Position numbers and translations under genes: made by a program. This document shows, one piece after another, positions 22,143-34,871 of a stretch of 40,977 nucleotides of DNA. The notes under the pieces are model-generated. The model saw nothing but the letters and a program-made list of their open reading frames with translations, had not been told where the DNA came from and ran no database searches. Position 1 is the first letter of the stretch; the number at the start of each line of letters is the position of its first letter. This DNA is from Candidatus Hydrogenedens sp. (GTDB lineage Bacteria; Hydrogenedentota; Hydrogenedentia; Hydrogenedentales; CAITNO01), in assembly GCA_012522755.1 (NCBI GenBank), contig JAAYJV010000051.1:1-40977 (forward strand), in the 5' to 3' direction.

Positions 22143-23327
22143 TTATCCTTCAATTGAAAAATTGGCTGTGTAAAAATATTTTTTGATCAAAAGTGCAGCC
22201 ACAGAGTCGGGATCCAGGCCGCAAACCTCCTGGAGCACCGCATCCAAACCGGATGCCTGCATGCGGGCTCGCAACACTTCCGCAAGGGGATCCGAAGCTT
22301 CAGTATAAGCCAGAGCACGGGCTGTTACAAAGGCAATATACTCCCCTTCAGTTCCCTGATCCAGGCAAAGACGCAAAGCGCCGACAAGACGGTCATCCCG
22401 GCCCAGCTTTCGCAACGGATCCCGGGCGACTCGCTCCACCTGATCGGCCAGTGCACGGTTATGATAACGCCGGATCAGATCCAGACGATGCGCTTCCAGA
22501 TCGTCCGCATCCAGATCGTGCTTCTTCACCAGAGCACGGCTGCTTTCCAGACCGGCGCCCTCCACAACATGGCATATTTCCGGATCGCGGATGGCTTCCC
22601 AGATATAGGTATATCCGTGATCATGACCCAGATAGGCCGTTGCCGCATGGGTCAGGTTGTGAACAAAGAGCTTCCGTTCCACATAGCCCTTGAAATTTCC
22701 CGTCGGCAACAGATGATGGATCACGGGAAGTGCCCCCCGGAAAGCACCCCGATCCACTGGCAATTCGCAATAAGGTTCCACAGCCACAGCAAGGATGTCC
22801 TCCGCCTGCTGCGCCGCTGTGCGCGTAGGAACCATGCGGCCTATGCTCGCCTCCACAAAGCCCACTTTCTCTTCAAGTATGTCATGCCATTCCGGCGCAA
22901 GATGAGTACGGACCAGCCCGCGCATCAACGCTTCGCCGTCATGAAGGTTTTCGCAGAGAATGATATCCAGAGGTGGGGCATCAGGATCAGAAAAACGCAG
23001 GGGAATGGCCGCCGCAATGACCGGTGCAATATGCGGCAGGGCATGCATGCCCACGGCTGTGGAGGCTATGGCGGCCTCGGCCAGAACAGAAGCAGCTCCG
23101 TCACGATCAGAAGCATGGACAGCACGGACAGCGCCAATGGTCAAACGCTCGGAACCCTCGTCAGAAACAAGATCCAGCGGATAACAGCCCCGGGCGTTCA
23201 ACGCATCCACCACCTCGGAAACCACATCAATAAAAACGGTGGCATACCCGCTCTCAAAGTACAACTGACCGAGAAAACCACGGCCTATATTACCGGCACC
23301 AAAATGAACGGCTTGTGGAAGCAACAT
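22143..23327 (-). CDS. mtlD: Mannitol-1-phosphate 5-dehydrogenase-like protein
   Basis: NAD-dependent oxidation of mannitol 1-phosphate to fructose 6-phosphate. The ATG at 23327 (394 aa) has AAGGA upstream and begins at the nucleotide-binding motif VHFGAGNIGRGF; the longer frame starts before the predicted transcript start. Also visible are ILCENLHDGEALM, EASIGRMVPTRT and KLFVHNLTHAATAYLGH, where the Lys, Asn and His belong to the polyol dehydrogenase active site. No mannitol phosphotransferase gene lies nearby. It is the first gene of the mtlD-E2-lpd run, an unusual pairing. The last codons overlap the E2 ribosome site. Confidence 0.88.
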   Translation of the reverse strand: MLLPQAVHFGAGNIGRGFLGQLYFESGYATVFIDVVSEVVDALNARGCYPLDLVSDEGSERLTIGAVRAVHASDRDGAASVLAEAAIASTAVGMHALPHIAPVIAAAIPLRFSDPDAPPLDIILCENLHDGEALMRGLVRTHLAPEWHDILEEKVGFVEASIGRMVPTRTAAQQAEDILAVAVEPYCELPVDRGAFRGALPVIHHLLPTGNFKGYVERKLFVHNLTHAATAYLGHDHGYTYIWEAIRDPEICHVVEGAGLESSRALVKKHDLDADDLEAHRLDLIRRYHNRALADQVERVARDPLRKLGRDDRLVGALRLCLDQGTEGEYIAFVTARALAYTEASDPLAEVLRARMQASGLDAVLQEVCGLDPDSVAALLIKKYFYTANFSIEG

Positions 23328-29705: not shown

Positions 29706-30638
29706 TCAGCCTTGAACATAGCCTGATTCGGGCAGGCCCGTGGTACGCATATATGCCACGGCCTGCCCTATTTCTTTGAGCAGAGCCTCGGCATTGGCCG
29801 TCTTGTGTTCAAAGTGCAGCGAGATGGGTCCGCTGAAATCAGCTTCCTCCCGGAGCAGCGCGAGAAAAGCCGGTACATTCAGCACACCTTTGCCCAGAGA
29901 AGTCCATTGAGGATAATTGCCTGTAAAGGTGAAATCTTTGAGGGAGACCATATGCACCCGGGGCGCCAGGAGCCGGGCTGCAATACGCCAGTTCCCCAGA
30001 GGGCTTTCCACGAGGGCATGGGCCGCATCAAGATTGGAGCCCAGGCTCATCGGCTGGTTGTCTTCAAAGATCTGATACAAATCCCACATGGGAGCACCCA
30101 CGTTATTGATCCCTGAATGGTTATGGTAGCCCATCCGCATACCGTGCACCTCGGCGATGTGCGCCATGGCACGCAGTTCCTCACTGATACTTTTGAGCTG
30201 AGACTGAATCGCTTCCCCTCTTCTGTATTTATGATTGCCGATGCGCATGAAAGAAATACCGCATTGCGCAGCCGTTGCGACCACTTCAGAGAATCCCGGA
30301 TCGCTGCTGCTGCAGAACAGGGTTGTGATCATGGGCACTTCCAACCCTTCCGCGCGGATCTGATCGACAGCCAGAGGCAATGCTTCCACCACTTCTTCCG
30401 TGGCAACATGTCCCCCATCCCGCACGGTCAGGTCTATGCCATCAAGACCCAGAGAACGGCATGCTTTCGCCATCTCAGGGACACTCATGAATTGCAGATG
30501 TTTGGAAAATATGCACAGGGGCGGTCGGGTATTTTTTGAGGGTTTCTTTTCCGAAGAAACGGCTCCGCAGAAGGCGTTGGGTGCCAGAGTTGCCAGGGTC
30601 ATTGAACCGAGAAAGTAACGGCGATCCATAGCGCTCAT
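29706..30638 (-). CDS. Exported sugar phosphate isomerase/epimerase-like protein
   Basis: A 310-aa TIM-barrel protein of the xylose-isomerase-like superfamily. It begins MSAMDRRYFLGSMTLATLAP, which looks like a twin-arginine export signal. The barrel is visible as LGLDGIDLTVRDGGHV, MRMGYHNHSG, LGSNLDAAHAL and MVSLKDFTF, with likely metal or substrate residues in the His-Asn-His and Asp stretches. Such proteins are frequent in glycan-degrading bacteria, but exact reactions are rarely known. AAAGGAAA lies six bases before the ATG. Divergent from the ferredoxin gene; its stop is 11 bases from the thrS stop. Confidence 0.82.
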   Translation of the reverse strand: MSAMDRRYFLGSMTLATLAPNAFCGAVSSEKKPSKNTRPPLCIFSKHLQFMSVPEMAKACRSLGLDGIDLTVRDGGHVATEEVVEALPLAVDQIRAEGLEVPMITTLFCSSSDPGFSEVVATAAQCGISFMRIGNHKYRRGEAIQSQLKSISEELRAMAHIAEVHGMRMGYHNHSGINNVGAPMWDLYQIFEDNQPMSLGSNLDAAHALVESPLGNWRIAARLLAPRVHMVSLKDFTFTGNYPQWTSLGKGVLNVPAFLALLREEADFSGPISLHFEHKTANAEALLKEIGQAVAYMRTTGLPESGYVQG

Positions 30639-30674
30639 GAAATTTCCTTTCTTCTTTTTTATAAGCTGTTTTTC

Positions 30675-30703
30675 ATTGTAACATGCCTCCTTTTATTTCC
30701 AAA
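30675..30703 (-). promoter_or_regulatory. Possible promoter of the isomerase-like gene
   Basis: Minus strand: extended -10 TGTTACAAT (TACAAT at 30675-30680), 17-base spacer, weak -35 TTTGGA (30698-30703). The region is AT-rich. Confidence 0.4.
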
Positions 30704-30733
30704 AGAAAAGATTATTCAATTATTTTTGGATAT

Positions 30734-30747
30734 TTGACTTAAGTCAA
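30734..30747. promoter_or_regulatory. FNR/HcpR-type operator before the ferredoxin-hcp pair
   Basis: TTGACTTAAGTCAA is a perfect 14-base palindrome. A -10 box TATACT at 30770-30775 implies a start near 30782, which puts the palindrome centre at about -41.5. That is the class II position for Crp/Fnr-family activators. Known sites of the family (TTGAT-N4-ATCAA for FNR; related TTGAC-type sites reported for HcpR) have this shape. The regulator itself is not in the window. Confidence 0.7.
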
Positions 30748-30769
30748 GGTATTTCTTTTTTTAAGAAGC

Positions 30770-30775
30770 TATACT
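30770..30775 (+). promoter_or_regulatory. -10 box of the ferredoxin-hcp transcript
   Basis: TATACT 22 bases after the palindrome, with no good -35 other than the palindrome itself. This is the expected arrangement for an activator-dependent promoter. Confidence 0.55.
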
Positions 30776-30817
30776 GTGATCATCAACAGGGGCAAAACAG
30801 TTAAAAAGGAAGCTATC

Positions 30818-31639
30818 ATGGCAATCAGACAGATCATTAAAATTGACGAAGACAAATGCGACGGCTGCGGTCTGTGCATTGTGGACTGTGAAGAAGGTGC
30901 TCTGGCCATTGTGGATGGAAAAGCAAAGCTGGTGAAAGACAGTTATTGTGATGGTCTGGGCGCATGTATCGGAAGCTGTCCCACAGGCGCACTGACCATT
31001 GAAGTGCGTGAAGCGGACGAATTCTGTCTGCCTCCTGATCATCCTGCAGCACAATCGGCGGCTGCGGCCGTTGCGGCGGCCGCTGCGACTGCTGCTGCAA
31101 CGCCTCCGGCTTCAGGCTGTCCCAGTGGTGGAACCGGTACGCGCATGCCGGCATTTTCAGGGGGATGTCCCGGTGCGGCCTCCCGACAGTTTCAGGCGGC
31201 TCCTGCACCGGCTCCGGCGCCGGCAACTGCGGCCTCTCCGCAGACAGCTGCACACAGCCCTTCCGCTTTGACGCACTGGCCTGTTCAGTTGCATCTTGTC
31301 AACTTCAACGCACCGCAGTTTCAGCAGCGGGAAATCCTGATCGCCGCCGACTGCAGTGCTTTCGCCTGCGGCGCTTTTCATCCCAGACTGCTTCAGGGGA
31401 AAGCCCTGGCCATTGCCTGCCCGAAGCTGGATGATCCCACAGGCTATATGGAAAAACTTGTGGCCATGTTCCAGAACACAGGCTCGCCGAAAGTCACGGT
31501 AATCCGCATGGAAGTGCCCTGCTGCCGTGGTATCACCCAATGGGTCGTTTCGGCCCGCGAACAGGCTGGCGGCAATACGCCCATCGAAGAAATCGTCATG
31601 GGCGTTGAAGGCGATCTCTTGAGCCGAAATACCTATTAA
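30818..31639 (+). CDS. Hcp-associated ferredoxin-domain protein
   Basis: A 273-aa protein that probably passes electrons to Hcp. The ATG at 30818 has AAGGAAG upstream. The N-terminal ferredoxin domain has a complete first motif (Cys14, 17, 20, 24). Its second motif has Leu47 where a Cys is usual (Cys44, Leu47, Cys50, Cys54), so the second cluster may be three-iron or otherwise ligated. A long Ala/Pro-rich linker with two GCP motifs follows. The C-terminal domain contains ILIAADCSAFACGAFH and EVPCCRGI, a Cys-rich unit seen in proteins encoded beside hcp. hcp follows 69 bases later, probably on the same transcript. Confidence 0.88.
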   Translation: MAIRQIIKIDEDKCDGCGLCIVDCEEGALAIVDGKAKLVKDSYCDGLGACIGSCPTGALTIEVREADEFCLPPDHPAAQSAAAAVAAAAATAAATPPASGCPSGGTGTRMPAFSGGCPGAASRQFQAAPAPAPAPATAASPQTAAHSPSALTHWPVQLHLVNFNAPQFQQREILIAADCSAFACGAFHPRLLQGKALAIACPKLDDPTGYMEKLVAMFQNTGSPKVTVIRMEVPCCRGITQWVVSAREQAGGNTPIEEIVMGVEGDLLSRNTY

Positions 31640-31708
31640 GTCTTGATTTAGTGTATCCTATATGTCCTTGGTTAAAACTTTAGGCAACCTGTTTAGAGGA
31701 GAAAAACA

Positions 31709-33343
31709 ATGTCGATGTTCTGTTATCAATGCGAGCAAACCGCACGCTCCACCGGATGTACCGCCCATGGTGTATGCGGAAAAGATCCGGAAACTGCAGC
31801 TCTTCAGGATCTGCTTGTGTATCTGGCGAAAGGCATCAGCCAATATGCCGACAAACTGCGTGGATCCGGGGTCAAAACCCCCAAGGCTGATCATTATGTG
31901 ATTAAAGCGCTCTTCACCACGGTCACCAACGTGAATTTTGATCCCGAGACACTGGCCACTCTGATCTCCGCAGGCGTAGACATTCGCAATGAATTGCGTG
32001 AATCCTGCAAGACCATGGATTGCATCAATGAACTGACGGGACCGGCTGTCTTTGAAATTGCTGAGAGCACCGACGAAATGATCCGTCAGGGCGAGACAAT
32101 CGGCATTGAAGGCCGTCTTCAGAAGTTCGGCTCAGACGCAGCCGGTCTGCAGGAGCTTATTCTCTACGGATTGAAAGGTATGGCTGCTTACGTTGATCAT
32201 GCCTGTATTCTGGGCGTTGAAGACGACGACATCTACGCCTTCACCCACGAAACCATGGCTTTTCTGGCTGATGAAGTGGATGATGTGGACGCTCTTGTCG
32301 GCCGTGCACTGGCTGTAGGCGAAACGAACCTGAGTGCCATGGAAAAACTGGATGCAGCCAATACAGGCGCTTATGGTCATCCTGAGCCGACCCGTGTCCG
32401 TGTGACGCCCGTCAAAGGAAAATGCATTCTTGTCTCCGGTCATGATCTGAAAGATCTGGATGCACTCCTTCAGCAGACGGAAGGTAAGGGAATCAATGTC
32501 TATACGCATGGTGAGATGCTTCCCTGTCTGGCTTATCCCGGATTGAAAAAATACAGCCATCTCGTGGGCAACTACGGTGGTGCCTGGCAGGATCAGGCCA
32601 AAGAATTTGATGCTTTCCCGGGCTCCATCCTCATGACCACCAACTGCATTCAGCGGCCCAGACAGAGCTATCAGAGCCGGATCTTCACAACAGGTCTGGT
32701 ACAGTGGCCCGGCGTTGAGCATGTGACCAACGACGATTTCAGCGCTGTCATTGATGCGGCACTGGAAGCGGAAGGTTTCGCGGAAGACGGACCCGAGCAG
32801 TACATCACCGTCGGTTTCGGTCATAATGCGGTCATGAATGTTGCCGACAAAGTTATCGAGGCTGTGAAAGCCGGTCAGATCCGTCGCTTCTTCCTCATCG
32901 GCGGGTGCGACGGTGCCAAATCCGGCCGTGATTACTATACTGATCTGGCCACAAGCGTTCCTGATGACTGTGTGATCATGACGCTTGCCTGTGGTAAATA
33001 TCGCTTCAACAAACTTGAGTTCGGTGATATCGGCGGTATCCCCCGGCTTCTGGATATCGGACAGTGCAATGATGCTTACAGTGCCATTCAGATCGCTGTG
33101 GCTCTGGCCAATGCCTTTGAATGCGGCGTCAATGATCTGCCTCTGTCCATCGTCCTCAGCTGGTATGAGCAGAAAGCCGTTGCCATTCTGTTGACCCTCC
33201 TTCATCTGGGTCTGCAGGGCATGCGCATCGGACCTTCTCTGCCGGCCTTTGTGGGACCCAATGTCCTCGATGTGCTTGTCAAAAACTTCGGGTTGACTCC
33301 CATTGACACGCCCGCAGGTGATCTGGCCGCCATGCTTGGCTGA
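31709..33343 (+). CDS. hcp: Hydroxylamine reductase / hybrid cluster protein
   Basis: Iron-sulfur-oxygen enzyme that reduces hydroxylamine in vitro and nitric oxide in current models; protects anaerobes from nitrosative stress. At 544 aa it has normal class I length. The N-terminal cluster motif is CYQCEQTARSTGCTAHGVCGK, with the class I spacing of anaerobes (Cys-x2-Cys-x8-Cys-x5-Cys). Downstream cysteine and glutamate ligands of the hybrid cluster occur around YTHGEMLPCLAYPG, TTNCIQRP and GGCDGAK. GAGGAG lies nine bases before the ATG. Regulated, by inference, from the palindrome at 30734-30747. Confidence 0.97.
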   Translation: MSMFCYQCEQTARSTGCTAHGVCGKDPETAALQDLLVYLAKGISQYADKLRGSGVKTPKADHYVIKALFTTVTNVNFDPETLATLISAGVDIRNELRESCKTMDCINELTGPAVFEIAESTDEMIRQGETIGIEGRLQKFGSDAAGLQELILYGLKGMAAYVDHACILGVEDDDIYAFTHETMAFLADEVDDVDALVGRALAVGETNLSAMEKLDAANTGAYGHPEPTRVRVTPVKGKCILVSGHDLKDLDALLQQTEGKGINVYTHGEMLPCLAYPGLKKYSHLVGNYGGAWQDQAKEFDAFPGSILMTTNCIQRPRQSYQSRIFTTGLVQWPGVEHVTNDDFSAVIDAALEAEGFAEDGPEQYITVGFGHNAVMNVADKVIEAVKAGQIRRFFLIGGCDGAKSGRDYYTDLATSVPDDCVIMTLACGKYRFNKLEFGDIGGIPRLLDIGQCNDAYSAIQIAVALANAFECGVNDLPLSIVLSWYEQKAVAILLTLLHLGLQGMRIGPSLPAFVGPNVLDVLVKNFGLTPIDTPAGDLAAMLG

Positions 33344-33376
33344 GAATCGAAGCGTTAATCAGGACACTATGAATAA

Positions 33377-34111
33377 ATGAGTTCTTTTCACGCAGCTGAA
33401 TATTATGAACTGTTGGGAAATCGTGGCGGGCGTCTTGAGCGGGAAGGTCCCTTCCTCCTTGAGGCGCTCGCCGGCGCCCCTTCCTCACGGGTGGTGGATC
33501 TGGCGAGCGGGCTGGGACTCCATGCCCATTATCTGGCGGAGCAGGGTGCTGAGGTGGATGCTCTGGACTTGAGCAGCGGCATGACAGACCATGCGCAGAA
33601 ACAGCGCCCCCATGCCCGGATCAATTACAGAGTAGCGGACATGCGCCACCCTCAGGGCGGTCCCTACGGACTTGCCCTTTGTCTGGGAAATTCCTTGTGT
33701 CTTCTTGAGGGCAAAGATGACCTGAAGCTATTTTTTCAGGGGGTGGCGGAGGTATTGCAGCCCGGCGGCCTGTTGATCACGCAGACGCTGAATTATGACA
33801 AGCCCGTCATGAAAAAGTCCCGTATCCGTGTGGAGCAGGAGAGCCGGGACAACATGCAGCTGGTGGCTGTGAAGACTTTCCAGCCCGAGGCAACGCGGAC
33901 CCGTCTGACCATTCATTATTATGAGGCGACGCCGGAGCTGCTCCGGGAAAGCCGGGAAGAGTCATTGTTGCAGCATTGGACGGCGGAGGAACTGATCAAC
34001 TGTGCAACTGAGGCTGGAATGAAAGTGGAATCCAGCCGGGGCGCCTATGATGGGGCACCTCTGACACCGGATTCCACTGATATTATTTTTCTTTTTCGCA
34101 AAGAGCAGTAA
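33377..34111 (+). CDS. Class I SAM-dependent methyltransferase
   Basis: A 244-aa cytoplasmic methyltransferase of the Rossmann type. SAM-binding motif I reads VVDLASGLGLHAHYLA (about 39-54) and the acidic residue after strand 2 is in VDALDLSSGM. Motif IV lies near LALCLGNSLCLLEG, and LQPGGLLITQTLNY follows. The substrate is unknown. The ribosome site is weak at the ATG. A three-codon reading frame (ATG AAT AAA TGA at 33369-33380) sits behind AGGA and its stop overlaps the methyltransferase ATG, so re-initiation is possible. It starts 33 bases after hcp and may share its transcript. Confidence 0.85.
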   Translation: MSSFHAAEYYELLGNRGGRLEREGPFLLEALAGAPSSRVVDLASGLGLHAHYLAEQGAEVDALDLSSGMTDHAQKQRPHARINYRVADMRHPQGGPYGLALCLGNSLCLLEGKDDLKLFFQGVAEVLQPGGLLITQTLNYDKPVMKKSRIRVEQESRDNMQLVAVKTFQPEATRTRLTIHYYEATPELLRESREESLLQHWTAEELINCATEAGMKVESSRGAYDGAPLTPDSTDIIFLFRKEQ

Positions 34112-34124
34112 AGCGTTTTCGTCG

Positions 34125-34871
34125 TCAGTCTGCTTTGCCCTGGTTCGCTACGGCTTCGGCCGCTTTGCGGATGGCTTCGGGATCACCCAGATAGCGATGG
34201 CCCAGAGGTTTGAGGTTCTCATCAAGATCATAGACCAGCGGAATTCCCGTGGGAATATTCAGACTCAGAATATCCTGTTCGGAAATGCCGTCCAGATATT
34301 TGACGAGTGCACGGAGGCTGTTGCCGTGGGCGACGATGAGAACACGCTTGCCGGCTTTGACCTGAGGAGCAATCTCTGATTCCCAGTAAGGAATGAAGCG
34401 GGCCACTGTTTCTTTCAGACTTTCCGTAAGCGGAACCTGATCGGCTGTCAATCCTGCATAACGCCGGTCATGAGCCGCATTTCTTTCATCCGTCGCTTCG
34501 AGGGGCGGCGGCGTAATATCATAGGAACGACGCCAGATTTTGACCTGTTCTTCGCCGTGCTTCGCTGCTGTCTCAGATTTGTTGAGCCCCTGCAAGGCGC
34601 CATAATGCCGCTCATTGAGTCGCCAGTCGCGGACTACGGGAAGCCACATCTGGTCCAATTCGTCCAGAACATGCCACATGGTGCGAATGGCGCGTTTCAA
34701 TACAGAAGTGTAAACCAGGTCAAACTCAAAGCCTTCAGCCTTGAGGACTTTCCCTGCTGAAGCCGCTTCCTGACGGCCCTGCTCGCTGAGATCCACATCT
34801 GTCCAGCCCGTAAAGCGATTGTCCAGATTCCAGGTGCTTTGACCATGTCTGATCAATACCAGTTTATGCAT
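34125..34871 (-). CDS. gpmA: 2,3-bisphosphoglycerate-dependent phosphoglycerate mutase
   Basis: Interconverts 3- and 2-phosphoglycerate in glycolysis. 248 aa, the normal length. The phosphohistidine motif [18 protein letters not shown] (His9) opens the protein. [24 protein letters not shown] and the second catalytic His in [14 protein letters not shown] are all present. TAAGGAAA precedes the ATG. It converges with the methyltransferase gene (13 bases apart), with no terminator hairpin visible between them. The 262 bases upstream, to the sialidase, contain no recognised element. Confidence 0.97.

Follow-up and report, generated by a model that had tools for sequence, protein, structure and literature searches.

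A predicted HcpR1-type class II promoter and an unlinked candidate regulator for the frdX-hcp locus of a Candidatus Hydrogenedens genome

The window, i.e. the whole stretch of 40,977 nt of DNA analysed here, lies on contig C12 of a 4.0 Mb genome (199 contigs, 95.2% complete) and carries a probable three-gene operon on the plus strand. The first gene (30818..31639) encodes a protein of 273 aa whose N-terminal part is a [4Fe-4S] ferredoxin and whose C-terminal part is conserved; the label FrdX-like is provisional and derives from its place before hcp, as no family model so named matched. It is followed by hcp (31709..33343), specifying a hybrid cluster protein/hydroxylamine reductase of 544 aa (NF003658, 813 bits against a cut-off of 367), and by a class I SAM methyltransferase gene (33377..34111), the probable third member, which lies directly 3' of hcp in all seven relatives fetched from the window's family (f1). 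Since no terminator-like sites were detected in 30500-31750 or on the plus strand of 33200-34300, a single frdX-hcp-methyltransferase transcript is predicted as likely. A Shine-Dalgarno-like AGGAAG (30807..30812, plus strand) is the likely ribosome site of the first gene. On the minus strand, a divergent TIM-barrel gene with a weak IolE match (29706..30638) separates frdX from a gene that by eye resembles thrS; in the seven fetched f1 relatives, where about 1 to 1.6 kb upstream of frdX was covered, it was not detected, so it was likely gained in the window's lineage.

The 179-nt intergenic region before frdX contains the perfect palindrome TTGACTTAAGTCAA (30734..30747, centre 30740.5), a predicted HcpR1-type operator, and the -10 hexamer TATACT (30770..30775, plus strand), which begins 22 bases 3' of the palindrome's end. 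Counted rather than mapped, the predicted transcription start falls at 30782 (plus strand), 7 bases past the hexamer, which places the palindrome centre at -41.5. Furthermore, a scan of the plus strand of 30500-31750 detected no -35/-10 pair of sigma-70 type, and the spot 17 bp 5' of TATACT is occupied by the hexamer AGGTAT. All ten half-site bases are identical to those of the published HcpR1 consensus wyTTGACnnnnGTCAArw, and among the four flanking bases, the final G does not fit w. The original prediction, which had described this palindrome, a TATACT at 22 bases, a centre at -41.5 from a predicted start, the lack of any other -35 and a closeness to HcpR sites, is thus borne out in each of these respects. 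A T-run at about -59 to -55 (30723..30727, plus strand) is partly conserved 5' of the palindrome, with T at 30723, 30724 and 30725 in 11, 14 and 13 of 15 f1 promoters, respectively, and may be contacted by the alpha C-terminal domain of RNA polymerase.

The identity of the palindrome, rather than its mere presence, is what sets it apart. When the intergenic region was simulated 40,000 times with a first-order Markov model, some perfect 14-bp palindrome arose in 1,491 runs, so that a palindrome as such is unremarkable in this A+T-rich stretch; TTGACN4GTCAA arose in only three, which makes its occurrence here striking. It is also the sole mismatch-free match to the motif within the window, where the only other perfect 14-bp palindrome is GGGCATGCATGCCC (23039-23052). 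A promoter-pair scan did detect a sigma-70-like TTGACT-17-AATAAT pair overlapping the palindrome on the minus strand (30719..30747; 10/12 matches), by which the palindrome could be read as the -35 of a promoter for the divergent TIM-barrel gene. However, the palindrome and its 22-nt gap are kept in the seven fetched relatives in which this gene was not found upstream of frdX, and the -10 of the pair is not kept in relative G001 (by eye, locus L016), so that the pair is itself probably a chance match. With neither gene nor -10 conserved, the divergent promoter was rejected, and an explanation by either such a promoter or chance (three in 40,000) is extremely improbable.

Conservation of the site was assessed in a search for FrdX across 60 genomes of the window's order, its own among them, which yielded 28 loci judged to be true FrdX (L015-L042, one per genome; weaker ferredoxin matches excluded). 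The palindrome (up to two mismatches over ten half-site positions, at most 150 nt upstream) was present in 18 of these 28 frdX promoters, namely the full set of 15 from family f1, which includes the window's, together with those of G025, G031 and G053. One locus, L038, in whose genome (G032) hcp precedes frdX, was left out of the frdX promoter alignment by hand. In every one of the 18 promoters with a site, a hexamer having A at position 2 and T at position 6 follows at a gap of exactly 22 nt; among other gaps between 14 and 30 nt, such a hexamer was met in 10/18 at gap 24, which overlaps the same hexamer, and in at most 4/18 at each of the remainder. The four divergent hcp promoters (G032, G047, G057 and G058) all have the 22-nt gap as well. 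Across the 15 f1 promoters, information content is highest in the half-sites (1.91 bits per position), followed by the -10 (1.29) and the spacer (0.51). At class II CRP/FNR promoters, direct contact between activator and polymerase is established, and a constant distance with a freely varying spacer is the expectation from such contact.

This geometry also bears on the possibility that the same regulator acts from the same site as a repressor, bound without nitric oxide and leaving when nitric oxide damages its cofactor. Repressors tolerate many operator positions, whereas the fixed -41.5 arrangement is what activation needs; moreover, 22 nt separate the site from the -10, on a strand where no -35 was detected, and the two cysteines of the candidate regulator (see below) are too few for an FNR-type cluster. 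Although repression has been proposed for the HcpR2 of D. desulfuricans (PMC5701242, in excerpt), it is an improbable account of the present promoter. Activation from a class II site is the preferred reading; at the level of sequence, site, -10 spacing and regulator co-occur across relatives. Support for the DNA part of an HcpR1 switch is strong; activation, nitric oxide sensing and the involvement of heme are what we infer.

A Crp/Fnr-family regulator, the existence of which had been predicted from the palindrome, is present in the window's genome. In a Pfam search, three proteins exceeded the cut-off of the sensor model PF00027 and one that of the HTH model PF13545; the only protein passing both (C118:2709-3410; locus L011 1387-2088) is 234 aa long, scores 83.6 bits for PF00027 (cNMP_binding) and 57.3 bits for PF13545 (Crp-type HTH), and hence has the Crp/Fnr architecture. 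The same genome also encodes a 142-aa stand-alone cNMP-binding domain protein without HTH (L012 1396-1821, G000:C129). The regulator gene lies on contig C118 and the operon on C12, so the two are unlinked in this genome. None of the 14 NCBIfam models listed was passed by the regulator, the best being FtrB with 108 bits against a cut-off of 211; thus, no curated name fits it. Among PDB sequences, M. tuberculosis CRP chains matched best and DNR next (phmmer E 1.7e-28 for DNR). The predicted structure (mean pLDDT 90) retrieved Crp/Fnr structures with Foldseek: by E-value, GlxR and mycobacterial CRP came out on top; by query TM-score, DNR (3dkw) ranked highest at 0.63 among the 50 matches listed, and the Porphyromonas gingivalis HcpR (9day) also appeared among those listed, at 0.55. 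The recognition helix reads AETLSR in the genome's own regulator and PETLSR or SETLSR in most of its kin, that is, A, P or S at position 180, E181 and R185, with no R180 (CRP numbering, set by eye). The protein holds two cysteines in 234 aa and lacks the FNR-type cysteine motif; as two are too few, an FNR-type cluster is improbable. In G010 and G005 (L067, L068), a different Crp/Fnr paralogue is located directly 5' of the HcpR1-like gene on the same strand.

Orthologues of this regulator (E < 1e-40, the next-best match being about 1e-22) were identified in 23 of the 60 genomes. In six genomes from three families other than f1, the orthologue is divergent from hcp (G032, G047, G057, G058) or from frdX (G025, G031), and in all six the palindrome with at most one mismatch lies between the two genes. 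In counts tallied by hand, the site (up to two mismatches) occurred in 21/21 genomes having an orthologue and a readable hcp or frdX promoter; G014 and G015 were omitted, as they have the orthologue and no readable hcp or frdX promoter (for G014, an end piece of hcp). Among nine genomes without an orthologue, one had a site in the frdX promoter (G013, 82% complete; Fisher p 1.5e-6, kinship ignored), and two did when hcp promoters, readable in seven of the nine, were added (p 1.8e-5, kinship ignored); G052, which has no orthologue, carries a loose two-mismatch site before hcp. At one mismatch or fewer, the contrast was 20/21 with an orthologue against 1/9 without (p 1.3e-5, kinship ignored). 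As a separate observation, seven genomes lacking the orthologue (G018, G036, G017, G052, G034, G029 and G022; L274-L280) encode a different, shorter Hcp with frames of about 440-470 aa, a start of ..CDQCEQT.. and about 50% identity to the window's Hcp, and the type of Hcp appears to follow the presence of the regulator.

Since a single base in each half separates TTGACN4GTCAA from the FNR box TTGATN4ATCAA and Hcp is common in anaerobes, the site might instead serve an FNR-like regulator responding to oxygen or redox state, with no link to nitrogen oxides. However, the motif is the published HcpR1 one, the orthologues are associated with hcp, frdX and nrfHA, and the candidate regulator has only its two cysteines, which renders this alternative quite unlikely. 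An HcpR1-type regulator thus remains the preferred occupant of the site. Very probably, it would activate frdX-hcp-methyltransferase from the class II site under nitrosative stress. In the proposed sequence of events, an HcpR1-type Crp/Fnr dimer encoded at G000:C118:2709-3410 would bind the palindrome at -41.5, stand in for the missing -35 and recruit RNA polymerase to TATACT by class II activation. The frdX-hcp pair, and probably the methyltransferase gene too, would be turned on upon sensed nitric oxide or nitrite stress. Such a signal is suggested by the targets, namely hcp, frdX and, in relatives, nrfHA; sensing of nitric oxide would probably be heme-based, and Hcp with FrdX would serve the reductive detoxification of nitric oxide or hydroxylamine.

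More copies of the palindrome were also sought in the genome: TTGACNNNNGTCAA without mismatch does recur, with four places listed, which is not above chance (about three by a hand estimate from base composition). The mismatch-free count is therefore not enriched, and it is placement, not number, that matters. With up to one mismatch allowed, 109 forward matches stand against 86 for the reversed control, without clear excess. One mismatch-free place, C113:12191, was rejected as a target because it lies inside a long open frame. Two places, C79:97 and C131:97, share the first 127 bases of their contigs, which suggests a single repeat placed at contig starts. The strict class II pattern TTGAYN4RTCAA-N22-YANNNT was found once in the window's genome, at frdX, and no wider regulon is claimed there. 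Across 17 f1 genomes, it was listed at 28 places, comprising 14 at frdX, one before nrfHA and 13 elsewhere; in nine of these genomes, the window's included, frdX is the only place. Two genomes match only elsewhere: G009, whose frdX site has a mismatch, and G014, in which frdX was not detected. The reversed control gave one match across all 17 genomes. A pattern with wrong spacing (N3) matched at 22 places, of which two lie in the window's genome and none at frdX, so that a single genome-wide strict match is not in itself significant, whereas its place is.

The one nrfHA-side strict match belongs to G007, the one relative in which such a site was seen: here, a further perfect palindrome that also keeps the 22-nt gap (L186/L227, G007:C5:317-358) precedes nrfH (TIGR03153, 163.5 bits) and nrfA, and a small open frame separates it from nrfH. 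The gene nrfA occurs in 15 of the 17 f1 genomes, and the window's genome, one of these, encodes the ammonifying nitrite reductase NrfHA (L223, G000:C11:104040-106140). Its own nrfHA was rejected as a second target, as it has no site with at most one mismatch and its sole two-mismatch candidate falls inside the nrfH open frame; for minus-strand nrfHA loci, the nrfA start used in the site search was approximate.

The methyltransferase offers a further lead. The gene order frdX-hcp-methyltransferase is kept in 7/7 fetched f1 relatives, and the nearest PDB entries to the protein (33377-34111) are sugar N-methyltransferases (E 5.8e-12). Among 68 genomes from the order, 34 have a homologue (E <= 1e-20); when 30 homologue loci were read for up to about 1.5 kb per side, 13 adjoined hcp (all f1), six nrfA, one frdX and ten none of these. 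In the six cases with nrfA, spread over as many genomes from families f3, f5 and f10, the homologue lies directly 3' of nrfA. Furthermore, G006 displays the order hcp-methyltransferase-nrfH-nrfA, while G025 and G031 have a site-led operon frdX-nrfH-nrfA-methyltransferase without hcp (nrfA confirmed; nrfH by eye). Because homologues adjoin hcp in f1 and nrfA in f3, f5 and f10, and one is placed between hcp and nrfHA in G006, the enzyme may, tentatively, be an unrecognised working part of an HcpR1-controlled nitrogen-oxide defence that methylates a product or cofactor of nitrite or nitric oxide reduction. If so, methylation may repair or protect this compound or make it exportable, and a methyltransferase travelling with Hcp and the ammonifying nitrite reductase would be a lead on what else cells need under nitric oxide. 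TehB is a methyltransferase, and no TehB model matched the window's methyltransferase in the family-model search. A tehB homologue is mentioned in NsrR regulons in the excerpted part of PMC1274295. No literature linking hcp or nrfA with a methyltransferase was found by title or abstract start, in a search that lay outside most subscription journals.

Beyond the order, a FrdX alignment search of named genomes was evaluated for the best 80 loci among the matches listed. A site with at most one mismatch within 250 nt before frdX was observed at 18 of these 80 loci, against 7 of 1,600 shuffled regions, and a Crp/Fnr frame (E <= 1e-5 to the regulator profile) flanks 18 of the 80 (19 frames, some HcpR2-like). 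Of the 80, TTGA-N6-TCAA (up to two mismatches, within 170 nt) was present at 22, exact GTAACN4GTTAC at six (five labelled Bacteroidota-type, one Bacillota) and exact TGTGAN6TCACA at three. A -10 at gap 22 accompanies the site in 13 of 22 named loci and is absent from the other nine; in L114, L117 and L124, a regulator is near frdX and a frdX-side site is lacking. The motif classes set out in the excerpted part of PMC1274295 thus recur among named frdX loci. In a tree of 51 regulators, the f1 group (100/99) stands beside hcp/frdX-linked regulators and is separate from the order's own Crp/Fnr paralogues; support for the inner forks that unite the f1 and linked regulators is moderate (82-86% bootstrap), and the sequences include no experimentally studied HcpR1. 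Searches that left most subscription journals outside found no literature on HcpR in Planctomycetes or Verrucomicrobiota-type groups and, on HcpR class II promoters, none beyond PMC5701242. In sum, a raw-sequence reading has been turned into a tested regulon prediction, with one regulator and one strict target operon in the window's genome, a promoter spacing conserved to the exact base across families and a clean natural case of a predicted activator gene separated from its operon.

Comparison with known systems, for which the published accounts were available in excerpt, places the regulator with the HcpR1 kind. HcpR1 regulons of delta-proteobacteria other than Desulfovibrio have the motif wyTTGACnnnnGTCAArw and the targets hcp and frdX, joined by nrfHA in Desulfuromonas/Geobacter, and their regulators have a residue other than Arg at position 180 (Ser or Pro reported), Glu181 and no FNR cysteine motif (PMC1274295, Rodionov et al. 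2005). The window's operator, its hcp and frdX targets, the non-Arg residue 180, Glu181 and the absent cysteine motif are all alike. In contrast, the f1 regulator is unlinked to its target, the third gene is a SAM methyltransferase, the own nrfHA lacks a strict site, and the Ala180 of the own regulator goes beyond the Ser/Pro given in the excerpted account. In Clostridioides difficile, hcpR protects from nitric oxide, and among genes with altered expression in the hcpR mutant, a putative HcpR site occurs only at the frdX-hcp pair (PMC12915319); the target is shared, but hcpR there lies with frdX-hcp, unlike in the window's genome, and that HcpR is treated as an HcpR2 with a deviating motif (PMC1274295). 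The HcpR2 branch, including the HcpR of P. gingivalis (PMC12750200), has the Crp/Fnr fold and the hcp target in common with the window's system, and most of the branch is described with the motif GTAACnnnnGTTAC and Pro181. This combination was found at Bacteroidota frdX loci, where recognition helices read RPSLSR, RPSLAR or RPALAR, and is absent from the window and from its genome's regulator. Binding of heme and nitric oxide has been shown for some HcpRs only (PMC12750200). DNR of Pseudomonas aeruginosa, the structure with the highest TM-score of the 50 matches listed, controls denitrification genes from the FNR-type box TTGATnnnnATCAA, and the HcpR1 and DNR branches cluster (PMC1274295). Set against these systems, the regulator of the window's genome belongs to the HcpR1 kind, and its novelty, which is modest, resides in an unlinked regulator and an added methyltransferase.
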